A stretch of DNA of 33,525 bases from a virus. Shown one piece after another: positions 27,071 through 33,415 of this stretch. The position numbers were made by a program, and so were the translations under genes. Numbering within the stretch: position 1 is the first letter of the stretch; each line of letters opens with the position of its first letter. Location of the stretch: IMG/VR virus record IMGVR_UViG_3300010373_000102, positions 1 to 33,525 of that record; one strand, given 5' to 3'. The notes under the pieces are model-generated. The model searched no databases, was not told the origin of the DNA, and saw only the letters and a list, made by a program, of their open reading frames with translations.

Positions 27071-28324
27071 TCAGCCCATCCAGCCGTTTGATTGCGGGAC
27101 GCGCGGGGTGATGATTCGTTTGACGGTCGTTTGTTTCTGTGCGCGCCTCACACCCTCACAGGCATAGCGCAGCGCATCAAGTACGTGGTTGTCTTTGTCG
27201 GCCAGGATTGGCATTACCAACCCTGTCAGCGGATCAGTCTTGTAGCTATACAGAGTCAGTTCATCGGCCAGATGCTTGCAGCGCGGATGCACCACGATAT
27301 CGAAGCTCTTGAGCCATTCGACGCCCTCTTCCAAGCTGCGCGCGCCCTTAACAGCGGACAGGATGCGCGGAAATCCGTTCTTGCGCATGTGGCTGATCGT
27401 CTCGGGCCTCGCGCTATCGGCCACGATGGGCCACTTTTCGGCCTCCGGTACGCTCATGAACAGCTCTGGCAAGTTCACGATCTCGCAGCCCACCATGTAC
27501 GCCTCGTAATCGACGTACAGCGTGCGGCCGTCGATATAGCAGCGCACCAAAACGGAGGGATCGACCGAGAATCCCCAGTCAGCGCCCATCCTGAACGTGA
27601 CACCCTGCGGCGCCTCGAACTCTTCAATGCGCCAGTTACGGAACACGCGGGCTTCGCTGTTCTGCTCGTATTCACCGAGCCAAACGTGCGCGTATTTGTC
27701 CGGGTCGCGCCGCTGGTCGTATTCCATTTCAACGCGGAGCACATCAGGGAAATATGGGTTATCGAGGTAGTTGGCCTGCACCACGATAGAGCCGGGGGGC
27801 GGATTCTCACCCCTCAGTAGTGCATCGACCGGGTCGGTTTCCTTGCGCGGGTTCCAGCTTAGCCATATTTGGGAGTTTGGCTTGCGAATCGTGGGCCTGA
27901 GCATTTCCAGTGAACGGCTGCTAAGTGTCTGAGCTTCTTCCACCCACGCGATGTCATAGCCTTCTAAGGACTTTATCGACTCAGCGGTATGCGACGCCAT
28001 CCCCTGGAAGATGATAATCCCACCGTTGGAGCTATGAATTTTCTTATCTTGGACCTCAAAATAGGCCCCTGCGTTCATCGCCTCTATCTTGTGCTCAAGC
28101 AGTTTCTTAACGGATTGATCAAGACTCTTTTGGTTCTCTCGAACACATACCGCATCTGTCTTGTTAAGCAAAGACCGTTCAATCATCAATTCCGCAAAGA
28201 AATGTGATTTGCCGGATCCGCGCCCTCCATACACCCCAAGGTATCGAGTAGCGTCTCCGTTGGCATCCTCTTCCGCCAACAAGGGCATGAATACCCTTGG
28301 CGTCTCTATCGTCAATCCGCTCAC
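27071..28324 (-). CDS. terL: large terminase subunit (packaging ATPase/nuclease)
   Basis: 417 aa; start GTG 28324, overlapping the HNH gene stop (GTGA). Walker A GGRGSGKS (33-40), Walker B DIAWVEE (124-130) with catalytic Glu, and coupling motif SWNP (156-159). The nuclease half starts near GADWGFSVDPSVLV with metal-binding D249 and continues with VADSARPETI and DNHVLDALRY, further acidic residues. The sequence resembles PBSX/Sf6-type TerL (for example SLEGYDIAWVEEAQ). It drives DNA into the procapsid and cuts the concatemer. Confidence 0.95.
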   Translation of the reverse strand: MSGLTIETPRVFMPLLAEEDANGDATRYLGVYGGRGSGKSHFFAELMIERSLLNKTDAVCVRENQKSLDQSVKKLLEHKIEAMNAGAYFEVQDKKIHSSNGGIIIFQGMASHTAESIKSLEGYDIAWVEEAQTLSSRSLEMLRPTIRKPNSQIWLSWNPRKETDPVDALLRGENPPPGSIVVQANYLDNPYFPDVLRVEMEYDQRRDPDKYAHVWLGEYEQNSEARVFRNWRIEEFEAPQGVTFRMGADWGFSVDPSVLVRCYIDGRTLYVDYEAYMVGCEIVNLPELFMSVPEAEKWPIVADSARPETISHMRKNGFPRILSAVKGARSLEEGVEWLKSFDIVVHPRCKHLADELTLYSYKTDPLTGLVMPILADKDNHVLDALRYACEGVRRAQKQTTVKRIITPRVPQSNGWMG

Positions 28325-28884
28325 ATAAACCTGTTGCTCTTCGACAAATTCTCAGCGGCCGGGAGCACACAGAGATTTGCCGGGACATGCAGGCCACAGA
28401 CCAGCGGATGCGACAGAGGAACCTCGTGGTCTACATGGTACTCAATGCCAGTCTCACGCGTCAGCCGCCTAGCCTCTTCGTAGATAGCCCGGATGGCGCC
28501 GCGATCTGCCCACGCGGGCAATGCCGAGCGCAACTGAGCGCGGCGCGTGCTATTCCACTCATACACTTTGTCCCGGTTTGCAACCCGATATGCGGTTGCC
28601 AGCGCCTTCATGTGCTCGCTCTTGGCCGCATACCTATCCCGAGCACGCTGCATCAGCATTTCTCGGTTCTTCTGGTAATTGGCAGCGATGCGCGCCTTCT
28701 TGGCCTCGATGTTTCGCATGTAGGCAGCGCGGTCTTTAGCTTTTGCGGCTTCCGGATCGGCTAGTCTACGAACCTTTTCCGCATCCCTAGCGCACTCCTT
28801 GCAGCGCGTATGCATCCCATTCTTGCCGTTCTTCGCGTATGCATCAAGGGACTTGGAGACATTGCAAGTCGTGCAGGTTTTCAT
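28321..28884 (-). CDS. HNH endonuclease between TerS and TerL
   Basis: 187 aa from ATG 28884, the start that overlaps the TerS stop; an in-frame start at 28992 would run into terS. An N-terminal zinc cluster (C4, C7, C28, C31; CTTCNVSKSLDAYAKNGKNG) is followed by a basic helical linker and a C-terminal HNH: YHVDHEVPLSHPLVCGLHVP (149-168), N170 and ENLSKSNRF. It overlaps both neighbours by 4 nt. Such genes may be homing nucleases, but HNH proteins beside terminase genes are required for packaging cleavage in some phages, such as HK97. Which applies here is open. Confidence 0.88.
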   Translation of the reverse strand: MKTCTTCNVSKSLDAYAKNGKNGMHTRCKECARDAEKVRRLADPEAAKAKDRAAYMRNIEAKKARIAANYQKNREMLMQRARDRYAAKSEHMKALATAYRVANRDKVYEWNSTRRAQLRSALPAWADRGAIRAIYEEARRLTRETGIEYHVDHEVPLSHPLVCGLHVPANLCVLPAAENLSKSNRFM

Positions 28885-29318
28885 TCCGGAGCCTTTGGAT
28901 CCACAATCTTGCGCACGATCATCTGGATGCCGCCGCCATTCGCACCTTGCAGAGTCTGCTCGATCTTCTCGCCGTACTTCTTGGGCGACCACTTGGCCAG
29001 CAGCTTCAAGCGCGTTTCGATCTGGAGCTTGCGATGGCCCAGCATGTCCTCGCGCACTTCCTTGGTCTTGCCGTCGTCCGTTACCTCGCTGCGGATGCCT
29101 TCCTGAGGGGTGTCGGCAATCTCCAGGGTTTGGGCTGCGATGGCGTCAAAACCCACCTCTCTCGCGCGTGCGAAGCGTGCGGCAAAGGCAGGCTCAGCAT
29201 CAATCCAGTCATAGATCGTGCGCCATGCAGGCATTCCTTCCTCGCGGCAAATGGCGCGCAACGGCTCCCCCTCTGCTATCCGTTCACAAATAGCATCAGC
29301 CACTTCCTGCGAGAACAT
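28881..29318 (-). CDS. terS: small terminase subunit (Sf6 gp1-like)
   Basis: 145 aa; Sf6 gp1 has 140. The N-terminal helix-turn-helix is DAICERIAEGEPLRAICREE followed by GMPAWRTIYDWI (about 8-39). Then come FARAREVGFDAIAAQTLEIA, a central oligomerisation helix QIETRLKLLAKWSPKKYGEK and the Sf6-like end GGGIQMIV. It recognises the packaging site and loads TerL. The packaging site is likely within or close to this gene, as in P22-like phages (established for P22, inferred here). ATG 29318 lies 2 nt after the GroES-like gene's stop. Confidence 0.9.
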   Translation of the reverse strand: MFSQEVADAICERIAEGEPLRAICREEGMPAWRTIYDWIDAEPAFAARFARAREVGFDAIAAQTLEIADTPQEGIRSEVTDDGKTKEVREDMLGHRKLQIETRLKLLAKWSPKKYGEKIEQTLQGANGGGIQMIVRKIVDPKAPE

Positions 29319-29320
29319 GA

Positions 29321-29680
29321 TTACGCCTCGACAGCCTCAGGCATCTCAACGCCCACCACATCACCCATGGTGATCAGCGCGTACCGCTTGCCGTTTTCCC
29401 GGTGCTCGGGATACTCCAGCTCACTGAAGCGCACCACGTCCCCCGCTTGGAGCGTGCGCCGGCAGTCTCCGGCATCGAAGTACATCGGCGTAGGACGTAG
29501 GGTCTTGGGGTCTTTCTTGCCTGGGCCGACAGAAACGACAGTGCCACGGTTGTAGCTCTCCACGGCCTGCCCTTTGCCGCGCCAAGCGTCAATCTTGATT
29601 GGGATAATCAGTCCAGCGATGTTGGTCGGAATGGTTTCATCCAACTCAACCAGGACGCGGTCATGAAGGGGGATCATCAT
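29321..29680 (-). CDS. GroES-like (Cpn10 fold) protein
   Basis: 119 aa from ATG 29680 (TGATG overlap with the 23-aa ORF). It aligns by eye to GroES: MIPLHDRVLVELDE (2-15; GroES IRPLHDRVxVKR), the mobile-loop region TIPTNIAGLIIPI (GGIVIP), RGTVVSVGPGKKD (GxVxAVGxG), LQAGDVVRFSELEY (VKVGDxVxF) and RYALITMGDVVGVE (YLIxxExDIxAI). GroES has 97 aa; this protein has an extra insert near 54-76 and a longer end. Phage GroES homologues (T4 gp31) adapt GroEL for folding of coat proteins. The position just before terS suits a capsid-folding role. Confidence 0.75.
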   Translation of the reverse strand: MMIPLHDRVLVELDETIPTNIAGLIIPIKIDAWRGKGQAVESYNRGTVVSVGPGKKDPKTLRPTPMYFDAGDCRRTLQAGDVVRFSELEYPEHRENGKRYALITMGDVVGVEMPEAVEA

Positions 29681-29748: not shown

Positions 29749-29999
29749 GCGGTTCCTTAGTTAAAGTGCCCAGCCCCGCGCGCAATTGGTCGGGAGACAG
29801 CGGATTGCGCCTTGGTTCGTACTGGGCTGCCGGCGTTACAACGCCACTGGCCGGCGCTGGCTTTGCCACTTGCACCTGTGCCGAGCCCTGTCGGGCAGGA
29901 TGGCAACTGCTGGGCAGTGGTGGCGGGAGATTCGCCGCCACGATGCAGCACCTCTTGAACTTGTCGTGTGCGTGGGTGTGATCGGGCGGCAGAAAAGGT
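29749..29999 (-). other. stretch with an uncertain Pro/Ala-rich ORF
   Basis: No secure gene is seen here. Two overlapping - strand frames are open. One begins at GTG 29941 and is in frame with the GroES-like gene, so it could add 87 residues (AKPAPASGVVTPAAQYEPRR, then NPLSPDQLRAGLGTL looks protein-like). The other begins at GTG 29951 and ends with TAA at 29757 (64 aa, low complexity). The first could be a separate small gene ending in a frameshift, or an N-terminal extension of the GroES-like protein. Confidence 0.35.
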
Positions 30000-30108
30000 T
30001 GGCTGACCGGGACTCGAACCCGGCGAACCCGAAGCGCATTCGTGTATTCACCACCCTAAGGGCCCGGTAATAGTGCCGGATTGTTGGGTGCGCTACGGGA
30101 ATCAGCCC
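30000..30108 (-). tRNA. tRNA-like element 1, oversized and probably not a normal tRNA
   Basis: On the - strand a perfect T arm CCGGG-TTCGAGT-CCCGG is followed by TCAGCCA. This pairs at six of seven positions with GGGCTGA found about 100 nt upstream (30102-30108). The interior is 109 nt long in total and forms other hairpins (CCGG-CACTATTA-CCGG; CCC-TTA-GGG; CGAA-TGCGC-TTCG). It has no ordinary D arm or anticodon loop with U33. No CCA is encoded. It may be a degenerate tRNA, a tRNA with an insertion or a tRNA-mimicking RNA. Confidence 0.3.
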
Positions 30109-30113
30109 AAACG

Positions 30114-30137
30114 AAAAAGGCCACCGATTGAGTGACC
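30114..30137 (-). terminator. intrinsic terminator upstream of the late genes (tR'-like)
   Basis: On the - strand GGTCAC / GTGGCC (6 bp with one G-T pair, 7-nt loop) is followed by five T then CG. It lies about 380 nt downstream of the predicted promoter and before all late genes. Readthrough is therefore needed for late expression, as at lambda tR'. Confidence 0.75.
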
Positions 30138-30376
30138 TTGGAAATTTACCGGGTTTCGCGCCGCCACGCGCTGGATTGTCCCGTGTCCCTGTTCGCCATT
30201 GCTGGCTGGCCTGGTGAGGGTTATTAGGGGCCGTCTTTCCGGCCATGTCATGTCGGTGGCCGGCGATGATCTCCGGCTTTTGATTGTACGTCTGTCCGCT
30301 ATTCTGTTGCTGATAATCACTCAGCAAAAGCGCAAAGTGCAGAGGTTTCGCATCATCACTGCGCATTCACCAACAC
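30138..30376 (-). other. gene-free structured leader between tRNA-like element 2 and terminator
   Basis: No convincing coding sequence is seen; the short ORFs on both strands have random-looking composition. On the - strand at least two GC hairpins occur: GGCCG-GAAAGA-CGGCC (30229-30244) and GCCGG-(9 nt)-CCGGC (30259-30277). The stretch would be transcribed from the promoter at 30500-30527. Confidence 0.5.
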
Positions 30377-30459
30377 TGCTGCGGGCTGGACTCGAACCAG
30401 CGACCGGATAATCGAGGCATTTAGCCCCGAACCCTCTCTACCAACTGAGCTACCGCAGG
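30377..30459 (-). tRNA. tRNA-like element 2, near-complete cloverleaf, isotype unclear
   Basis: 83 nt without CCA. Readable parts are acceptor CCTGCGG with CCGCAGC (6 of 7 pairs, position 1-72 is C-C), T8-A9, D arm GCTC-AGTTGGTA-GAG, T arm GCTGG-TTCGAGT-CCAGC and discriminator A. The best anticodon arm is CGGGG-CTAAATG-CCTCG with U33. It is displaced by 4 nt and gives anticodon AAA with T37. The variable region is about 11 nt. The features are close to, but not, canonical, so decoding capacity is uncertain. It begins about 34 nt after the predicted promoter start. Confidence 0.5.
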
Positions 30460-30499
30460 AGTCTTGGCAAATTCTGGAGGCACCTATGCCCCCGACGAC

Positions 30500-30527
30500 A
30501 TAATGCCACGCTTTTTCAGGTTGTCAA
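30500..30527 (-). promoter_or_regulatory. sigma70-like late promoter candidate (pR'-like)
   Basis: On the - strand the -35 TTGACA is perfect (30522-30527). A 16-bp spacer leads to CATTAT (30500-30505), a 4/6 match to the -10. The predicted start is near 30493. It lies just downstream of the stop of the gene at 30537-30917 and upstream of the tRNA-like elements and terminator. Order and orientation parallel lambda Q-pR'-tR'. Confidence 0.6.
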
Positions 30528-30536
30528 GCTTTATTT

Positions 30537-30917
30537 TCAGCACACCCCAGCGCCCACTAGGCGGCGCAGCAGCGTCGTTCTGGCCTCAATCAGAATCGTT
30601 GTGCGCTCGAACGGGTCCGCTGGCAACCGCGGGCTTGTCCATACGTTGTATCCGGTTACGAGGTTGCGGGCCTGCAGCTGGATCGCCGTGCGGTGAACAG
30701 GCTCTAGCTCCCCGATATGGAAGTCGATGGCGTGCATGGTGGTGTTGTGCAGCGTCGAGTCCACCACATCGTTTTCGCTATCCCACTGGCGCGAGGTCTT
30801 CACGTCGACAAACATGGCGCTCGCCCCGTGCGATTGGACGCCGCTCCATGATTTTGCCCAGCGATACCAGCCCGAGATCAGGTCGTCCAGCAGGTTGTCG
30901 GTTTCGTCGCGCACCAT
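30537..30917 (-). CDS. possible late-gene regulator (126 aa)
   Basis: ATG 30917 has AAAGGGG upstream. The protein begins RDETDNLLDDLISGWYRWAK and contains SRQWDSENDVVDSTLHNTTM, HAIDFHIGELEPVHRTAIQL and QARNLVTGYNVWTSPRLPA. The C-terminal helix is RTTILIEARTTLLRRL. This pattern recalls conserved proteins at the end of early operons in betaproteobacterial temperate phages. It is the last gene before the late promoter, the position of Q in lambda, so an antiterminator or late activator role is inferred. No known Q motif is recognised. Confidence 0.6.
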   Translation of the reverse strand: MVRDETDNLLDDLISGWYRWAKSWSGVQSHGASAMFVDVKTSRQWDSENDVVDSTLHNTTMHAIDFHIGELEPVHRTAIQLQARNLVTGYNVWTSPRLPADPFERTTILIEARTTLLRRLVGAGVC

Positions 30918-32165: not shown

Positions 32166-32515
32166 AGGACCTCCTCAATATCAAACTCTTCAAACCTCGG
32201 CAACCTAGCCGGCCAGTTTCCATCGGCGCTGATTCGCGCTCGCGTTTGTGCGCCCCACTTCATCGCGAGATACAGCGTCTCTTCCCGTGAAAACAGCTCG
32301 TACCGATCAAACGGTCCGTGGCACCCCTTGGACAGGAAGCTAGGGGCGCACAGCGGGAAGCAGGACAAGTCACTCTGCTTGATACCCTTGCCAGTGGGTG
32401 GTGGGTGGGCTGCTTGGGAGCGGTCATGTAAGCCGCAGTTGGCGCATGGGAGCAACGCGACCAGCCGGCGATATTTCTCCGACCGGACGACGCTTTCTTT
32501 GGGGAAGGATTTCAC
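32162..32515 (-). CDS. HNH-like/Ref-like zinc-binding phage protein (117 aa)
   Basis: The start GTG 32515 (GTGA overlap, AGGAGG 7 nt upstream) was preferred over GTG 32521. It contains RSEKYRRLVALLPCANCG (C-x-x-C), QAAHPPPTGKGIKQSDLSCF, PLC and KGCHGPFDRY, a Cys/His pattern resembling the His-Me (HNH) fold of Ref-like and other phage recombination nucleases. It may be a structure-specific or recombination-linked nuclease. It is next to the NinB-like gene. Confidence 0.75.
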   Translation of the reverse strand: MKSFPKESVVRSEKYRRLVALLPCANCGLHDRSQAAHPPPTGKGIKQSDLSCFPLCAPSFLSKGCHGPFDRYELFSREETLYLAMKWGAQTRARISADGNWPARLPRFEEFDIEEVL

Positions 32516-32970
32516 GCGCACGCCTCCTGCGCATAGACCGGCTCAGCCGGAAATTCCAGCCGCACGCCGCGCCCGCCAAAATCCGCCTGCATGGCCTCGG
32601 CATACCGCGAGAGCTGTGGTTTTGTCATGAGCGACGTGACCGGCCAGCAGCGCATGGCGATGATCTTTTTCTCGTAAGACAGCGGCTTGATCACCGTGTC
32701 GTAAGCCCCGCGGAATTCGTCATCCTCTGCGCGCAGGATCGGCACGCCGTGGTGCAGCTTGCAATAGCACTTCCAGCCCAGCGCGTCATCCTCGGGCAGC
32801 TCGCGGGCCAGTTGTCCGTACCATGCGTGTGTGATGGCGTTTTGCGGAAGGCTGCGATCCTGGCCGGTCTTGACGCTCAGGCGCAGGAATCCGAACTGCC
32901 GCCACATTTCCCGCAGATTGCCAAGGGCGGCTTGCAGCGACTCGGTGCTGTTGATGATGAGGGCGCTCAC
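32512..32970 (-). CDS. ninB: NinB-like recombination protein
   Basis: 152 aa; start GTG 32970, overlapping the preceding stop (GTGA). The NinB family signature is FLRLSVKTGQDRSLPQNAIT (about 28-47), followed by HAWYGQLARELPEDDALGW, CKLHHGVPILRAEDDEF and SLMTKPQLSRYAEAMQADFG. Lambda NinB (Orf) binds DNA and helps phage recombination with RecF-type mediators. It partners functionally with Erf on the left arm. Length agrees with NinB (146 aa). Confidence 0.85.
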   Translation of the reverse strand: MSALIINSTESLQAALGNLREMWRQFGFLRLSVKTGQDRSLPQNAITHAWYGQLARELPEDDALGWKCYCKLHHGVPILRAEDDEFRGAYDTVIKPLSYEKKIIAMRCWPVTSLMTKPQLSRYAEAMQADFGGRGVRLEFPAEPVYAQEACA

Positions 32971-33086
32971 TGCTTTTCCTTCCAATTCGCGTAGGCAGCG
33001 GCTGGCGTGTAGCCAAGACCTGTCCCCCATCGTCCCGGCACCCAGCAGTACCAAAGGCAATCGAGCTTTTTCAGGCGTGGCTTCAC
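32967..33086 (-). CDS. small basic protein (39 aa)
   Basis: The start GTG 33086 overlaps the DUF1064 stop (GTGA), and the stop overlaps the ninB GTG. The product is KPRLKKLDCLWYCWVPGRWG followed by TGLGYTPAAAYANWKEKQ. The pattern with aromatic residues and AYxxWK is a known small phage protein of unknown role. Coupling on both sides supports translation. Confidence 0.65.
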   Translation of the reverse strand: MKPRLKKLDCLWYCWVPGRWGTGLGYTPAAAYANWKEKQ

Positions 33087-33415
33087 GAGACCACCTCCAC
33101 TTGGATCTGATGCACCGTCGCCATGAGGTGTTGTTTCACGCGAAACAATGGCGTGATGATGCCCTTTACGTCTTCGCAAACAACCCGCTTGTTTTTCAAA
33201 TCGAAGTACCGAAAGTCCGCTCTGTAGCGAAGCGCCGGTTTCTTTCGAGCACCGATCACAACCGCAGGCGCGAGCACGTAGACCGGCTGGCGCTCCAGAT
33301 TTGAGATATACCCGGCCCGCTCCAGAATAAGCAGCTCGCCATACCTGCGCGCCTCAGCTTTGGAATCGAAAACTATTCCCGCGACGGTCGTTTTGATTGC
33401 GCCGTATTTGCTCAT
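33083..33415 (-). CDS. DUF1064-family protein
   Basis: 110 aa; ATG 33415 with GGGGAGC upstream. The family signature is SKYGAIKTTVAGIVFDSKAE followed by ARRYGELLILERAGYISNLE and RQPVYVLAP, then YRADFRYFD, VVCEDVKGIIT and FRVKQHLM. The DSKxEA...YxADFxY...VxEDxKG arrangement suggests a small PD-(D/E)xK-like nuclease fold. It belongs to phage replication and recombination operons. Function not proven. Confidence 0.88.
   Translation of the reverse strand: MSKYGAIKTTVAGIVFDSKAEARRYGELLILERAGYISNLERQPVYVLAPAVVIGARKKPALRYRADFRYFDLKNKRVVCEDVKGIITPLFRVKQHLMATVHQIQVEVVS

Follow-up and report, generated by a model that had tools for sequence, protein, structure and literature searches.

A phage with a P22-type portal appears likely to control its late operon by a Q-type switch, with a regulator from a new Q-like sequence family and tRNA-derived elements resident in the late leader. 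The stretch analysed, hereafter the window, comprises positions 1 to 33,525 (33,525 nucleotides) of the IMG/VR virus record IMGVR_UViG_3300010373_000102. The identification of the locus as a Q-type antitermination switch is the firmest part of this reading, and we regard it as highly probable; it is rather probable that the tRNA-like elements are processed as tRNA precursors, and a tentative suggestion that such processing is the role for which they have been selected. Q-type switches and phage tRNAs are known, and an Stx2 phage is known to have tRNAs around stx2a in its late region (PMC7946995). What is new is the sequence family, a conserved element at the putative transcript start, a pair of tRNA slots on either side of the terminator and the overlong arms of some tRNA-like forms.

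Gene order and the candidate antiterminator

The late strand of the window is the minus strand, on which the parts of the window described here lie, and its gene order is lambdoid. A Holliday-junction resolvase gene of the nin-type region (33083-33415; PHROG 190, E 3.2e-39) is followed by the gene for the NinB/Orf recombination mediator (32512-33060; PHROG 7283, E 7e-42), small genes, the gene for a 126-aa protein, a promoter, a leader, a terminator and the late genes. Profile matches identify the latter as a GroES-like co-chaperonin, the first sizeable late gene (29321-29680; PF00166, PHROG 3188), the Sf6-type terminase small subunit (28881-29318; PF20901, 2.5e-39), the terminase large subunit (Terminase_3; 27071-28324; PF04466, 8.5e-34) and the P22-type portal. 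The original prediction, made from the sequence of the window alone, had placed regulator, promoter, leader, terminator and late genes in the lambda order; that order holds, with NinB upstream, and late genes do follow the switch. The departure from the lambdoid nin-Q-late order is that packaging genes, not lysis genes, come first. Several relatives likewise have a GroES-like co-chaperonin heading the late operon.

The interval 30000-30917 spans the switch, and conserved leader runs on to about 29757. Comparison with the relative L082, together with an alignment of three sequences, delimits a conserved structured segment before the first late genes (29757-29945) that shares 86% identity with L082 across 237 nt and occurs also in L086, despite different flanking genes. 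Its fold has a z of -2.2, with little covariation; either a packaging site or a structured 5′ UTR is conceivable.

The regulator-like gene of the original prediction is the open reading frame at 30917-30537, whose stop codon lies about 10 nt from the -35 element. Many relatives resemble the window in having this gene directly upstream of the late promoter, while in some small genes lie between. Neither alone nor as a 44-member family did the protein find a match in Pfam, PHROGs or PDB sequences, and a tblastn search of 50,697 phage records with two of the Q-like proteins found none; its relatives come from IMG/VR contigs and from bacterial assemblies, including Polaromonas, Variovorax and Luteibacter.

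Evidence on the nature of the protein comes from its predicted structure. An AlphaFold2 model comprises four helices (pLDDT 80, with low confidence at about 23-47). Compared by VIA-align with entries for the Q protein of phage 21 (Q21) it gave Z scores of 7.8, 7.1, 6.7 and 6.4 (6p18, 6jny, 6p1c and 6jnx), and with AlpA (7xya) 5.8, although Z scores below 8 for a helical protein may reflect a common arrangement and are not proof. The top-ranked entry, 6p18, aligns over 104 residues with an rmsd of 6.0, compared with 3.4 for 6jny. Sigma region 4 was also among the top matches, and it was matched again by a second model, made for a distant member with 26% identity to the protein of the window; the structural matches of that model include no Q21 entry. 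With Foldseek alone, no match reached E 0.001. The models of these two distantly related members thus both predict a helix-turn-helix fold like that of sigma region 4. The whole 21Q fold, with its ring-forming N-terminal part, may be shared, Q21 being the top match, but residues 23-47 are of low confidence, and the second model's list lacks Q21. On these models the 126-aa protein is a probable antiterminator of the Q21/AlpA kind, from a new sequence family.

A conserved promoter, hairpin and terminator

The leaders were compared in a set of 35 that are non-redundant and lie behind the 126-aa gene and its relatives. The promoter of the window, which the original prediction noted for its perfect -35, is of sigma-70 type (30500-30527) and reads TTGACA (30527-30522), 16 nt, CATTAT (30505-30500), with 10/12 matches. 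Promoter scans on their own came near chance (3 found, 1.9 expected); in the leader comparison a -35/-10-like pair was present in each of the 34 leaders examined (the window and 33 relatives), its -10 ending 5-9 nt before a conserved hairpin. Because of this spacing, the conserved block behind it should begin at about +1.

This block, 26 nt long, is common to all 35 leaders (consensus GGAnGGCnnAGnTGCCTCC-ARAATTT) and consists of a hairpin of 18-19 nt followed by A(G/A)AATTT. In the window the hairpin is GGGGGCA-TAGG-TGCCTCC (30476-30493) and is joined by the conserved CAGAATTT box (30469-30476). Conservation covers +1 to +25, where each position of the block carries about 1 bit, and is low in the -35/-10 spacer. 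The box contains a candidate -10-like pause element, CAGAAT (30476-30471); the CARAAT form sits at about +18 to +23. A box pattern with a fixed spacer fails to match the window's own box type.

RNAalifold predicted no pairs in a 30-column alignment of the hairpin, and for this reason we relied on energies and pair counts. The first 19 nt have a mean energy z of -2.05, whereas four positions displaced by 20-45 nt give about 0, and 79% of positions pair, compared with 35-52% when the frame is slid; both contrasts retain some bias, since the register was picked by a weight matrix that favours the true position and the shifted controls leave part of that advantage in place. Double changes number 12, G-U pairs are common, the bulge register differs in some relatives, and column-wise covariation is modest. 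With E <= 0.5 as the cut-off, a covariance model of hairpin and box picked out 37 sites in 765 kb, every one of them in a late leader, although most had gone into building the model. Of six loci kept outside the building, 3 gave hits at E <= 0.0034: L150 (E 1.8e-6) and L153 directly behind the gene, and L156 about 1 kb behind it.

The intrinsic, tR′-like terminator of the window occupies 30117-30139 and runs into a T-run and CG, in agreement with its prediction. Terminator scans alone again performed at chance (5 found, 5.5 expected); tied to the box they did not, with a terminator within 130 nt behind it in 25/35 leaders, where shuffled sequences gave 1.8 +/- 1.2; the usual starting point is 6 nt past the block. 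Ten leaders have no terminator at that distance, among them the window: its terminator lies further down because about 320 nt, including element 1 (see below), separate it from the box, and it corresponds to the terminator of L086, which is without the insert. Inserts between block and terminator, the place that we call slot A, occur in the window, L112, L118, L131, L141 and more. In the window the insert is bracketed, as in L118, by a repeat: the end of the box, GAATTTGCCAAG (30474-30463), recurs as AAATTTCCAAG (30147-30137) before the terminator. Promoter, hairpin and terminator thus recur as a block behind relatives of the 126-aa gene.

Two further observations concern these leaders. In L112, L118 and L141 slot A is taken up by a long stem, CAAAACGCATGCTGATTGG...CAGCAGCCGTTTTG, and CCAAGACT...AGTGTTGGTGAATGCG around element 1 of the window looks homologous to it. 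In L134, L150, L156 and L100 another conserved leader block (TTTGTCC..GGGATCCTATGGAGTGACAAGCGTGG) lies behind the terminator.

tRNA-like elements in the leader

The original prediction of tRNA-like elements stands for both, on different grounds: for element 1 by recognition as a tRNA, for element 2 by its acceptor and T-arm and by conservation. Element 1 (30376-30460, before the terminator) is called by ARAGORN and scores 35.9 bits with the Rfam tRNA model (RF00005; gathering score 29). In its predicted fold the anticodon arm is overlong, with about 11 pairs, a bulge and a 5-nt loop, UAAAU; a 5-bp anticodon stem with a 7-nt loop is absent from that fold. The formal anticodon is AAA (Phe), which is hardly used in bacteria. 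The best match among phage records is a Streptomyces-phage tRNA-Phe (74%). That element 1 is a copy of a host tRNA was considered and rejected: in four bacterial genomes with relatives of the gene, only fragments of the D-arm and T-arm match.

Element 2 (30107-30000, behind the terminator in slot B) combines a 6-bp acceptor and a 5-bp T-stem with a TTCGAGT loop, the D and anticodon arms being replaced by one long interrupted arm. Neither ARAGORN nor Rfam recognises it as a cloverleaf, and a search of phage records with it found no match. Its structure is kept in four sequences (the window, L086, L093 and L094) with two compensatory pairs, C-G to U-A in the T-stem and A-U to U-A in the long arm; in L094 one acceptor pair is broken. 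An element in L046 (4592-4751) follows this plan too: its acceptor is a perfect 7 bp, it ends in ACCA, and its arm extends for about 100 nt. In possessing an acceptor, a T-arm and one long arm, with no evident D-stem, element 2 resembles the tRNA-like domain of tmRNA, and its beginning, GGGCTGATTC, resembles the tmRNA 5′ end, a similarity that serves as a lead only. It differs in being about 108 nt long and in lacking a conserved tag reading frame (read by eye), and the window has no match to an Rfam tmRNA model.

Across 34 relatives, T-arms of tRNA type number 7 in 20.4 kb of leader (plus strand), and the remaining strand sequence of these loci, 399 kb in all, contains 0; for tRNAs called by ARAGORN the counts are 4 in leaders and 0 elsewhere. 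Permissive ARAGORN calls (60% threshold) were mostly noise and were left out of these counts. There are two slots for these tRNAs and tRNA-like elements. The one before the terminator contains element 1 of the window, a tRNA-Thr in L131 and an element in L118; the one behind it contains element 2, tRNA-Trp in both L053 and L082, tRNA-Arg in L121 and elements in L131, L112 and L142. In L046, L048 and L011, comparable elements precede the terminase genes. The leader anticodons are thus those for Trp, Trp, Arg and Thr, with Met or Asn upstream of the terminase in other relatives; since they vary, what is kept is a place in the leader and not a codon. Most relatives have no recognisable tRNA element, and such an element therefore cannot be essential to the switch.

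The placement of tRNA-like RNAs in the late leader had been thought unusual. The placement itself is real, but it is less singular than first supposed, because it recurs in this phage group. Searching the open-access literature we found no paper on tRNA-like leaders in Q-controlled operons, and blastn with the whole leader found no match in phage records. Elsewhere in the relatives we noted a tRNA-Ser-like element that is overlong, has an expanded arm and lies over 2 kb downstream of the terminase large subunit gene (L047:3222-3349) and a match to a group I intron (L002:7019-7739; 67.5 bits).

A proposed mechanism and its alternatives

From the computed features – gene order, conservation of promoter, hairpin and terminator, the predicted fold, and the presence and clustering of tRNA elements – we infer start site, pausing, antitermination and processing as follows. 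RNA polymerase would start at about 30493. The first 18 nt of the RNA would form the hairpin, followed by AGAAUUU, the DNA of which may double as a -10-like pause site. If the 126-aa protein is absent, transcription would stop at about 30117-30112, giving a leader RNA of roughly 380 nt that contains element 1. Were the protein to join the paused polymerase, the terminator would be passed, element 2 and the conserved leader would be made, and transcription would run on into the genes for the GroES-like protein, the terminase subunits and the portal. If the anatomy, which fits Q-type antitermination, is read in this way, then element 1 would belong to a constitutive short leader RNA and element 2 to antiterminated RNA only. 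Host tRNA-processing enzymes, with RNase P acting at the 5′ ends, would most likely cut out both elements, and their excision would separate the late mRNA from its leader.

Processing by RNase P is our favoured guess for the role of the elements, for which the original prediction had offered processed RNAs, antitermination signals or translation helpers. RNase P measures the stack of acceptor and T-arm by length and does not read the anticodon (PMC4919913), and processing is favoured because this stack is precisely what the elements keep. A bolder proposal, which we consider somewhat improbable, is that non-decoding tRNA-like RNAs, with acceptor and T-arm retained and a long structured arm in place of the anticodon arm, form a functional class in the late leaders of this phage group, as processing or regulatory parts of the switch of which one is made before and one only after antitermination, with the Q-like protein loading at the 5′-terminal hairpin element.

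The switches of phage 21, lambda and 82 share with the window the gene order, a promoter followed by an intrinsic terminator, and late genes behind; with Q21 the predicted sigma-region-4-like fold of the regulator is shared as well. The 126-aa protein, in contrast, has no detectable sequence similarity to known Q, the leader holds tRNA elements, and packaging genes come first. The Q sites of lambda and 21 lie in the -35/-10 spacer (PMC6606751), whereas here conservation falls on +1 to +25 and the spacer is not conserved in the group, which counts against the Q reading. AlpA of Pseudomonas aeruginosa, besides the fold match, likewise acts at a promoter followed by a terminator, but it controls host lysis genes from a site between -35 and -10 (PMC9371919). 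The late region of the Stx2 phage is also Q-controlled and holds tRNA genes; it differs from the present case, in which two slots flank the terminator, tRNA identity varies and some variants have overlong arms. Overall the Q-pR′-tR′-like switch originally predicted draws support from the predicted fold, the lambdoid order with NinB and the repetition of the block behind relatives of the gene.

The strongest challenge leaves the switch intact and concerns the tRNA elements, which might be passengers: a late leader may simply tolerate the insertion of tRNA genes, some of them decaying, with no part in the switch. The differences in tRNA identity and slot between relatives, the majority of leaders without tRNAs, the broken acceptor pair of L094 and the comparable placement around stx2a (PMC7946995) all agree with this view, to which we give an appreciable, if less than even, probability. 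Against it, the non-decoding architecture of element 2 is kept in four sequences with two compensatory pairs, and the similar long-arm element of L046 has a perfect 7-bp acceptor and ACCA; together these argue for selection on that shape. Element 2 as an attachment site (the 3′ end of a tRNA) or a chance resemblance is disfavoured to the point of being scarcely credible. Phage attP sites often carry the 3′ halves of tRNAs, but element 2 also has a 5′ acceptor strand, which is paired, its entire shape recurs in relatives at this position, and it sits in the late leader, upstream of the terminase genes.

The regulator itself invites a different question, namely whether it is an activator of late transcription that recruits polymerase to the promoter through its sigma-region-4-like domain and is no antiterminator at all. 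Both models have sigma region 4 among their best structural matches, and the distance from -10 to hairpin is constant within a few nt; yet the promoters already have a good -35 and -10, and an activator leaves unexplained the terminator that lies directly behind in most leaders, so that we consider this unlikely. Still less probable is that the 5′ hairpin is itself an antitermination RNA, independent of protein in the manner of the HK022 put RNA. Its G-U pairs and shifting bulges at the 5′ end are those expected of an RNA over a DNA palindrome, but there is only a single short hairpin, and the block, which was collected behind the gene, turned up at no other place in the loci.

If the locus is taken as a Q-type switch, the Q/AlpA group probably gains one more sequence family, present in phages of Burkholderiales and others, and the conserved element of this probable new Q family lies over the putative transcript start and not in the promoter spacer. 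It also provides a repeated setting for asking why phages keep tRNA genes: the place in the leader is kept, the anticodon changes, and some of the tRNA-like members can hardly decode at all. As dozens of related viruses show the same layout, viral tRNA-like RNAs of an unstudied kind become testable.
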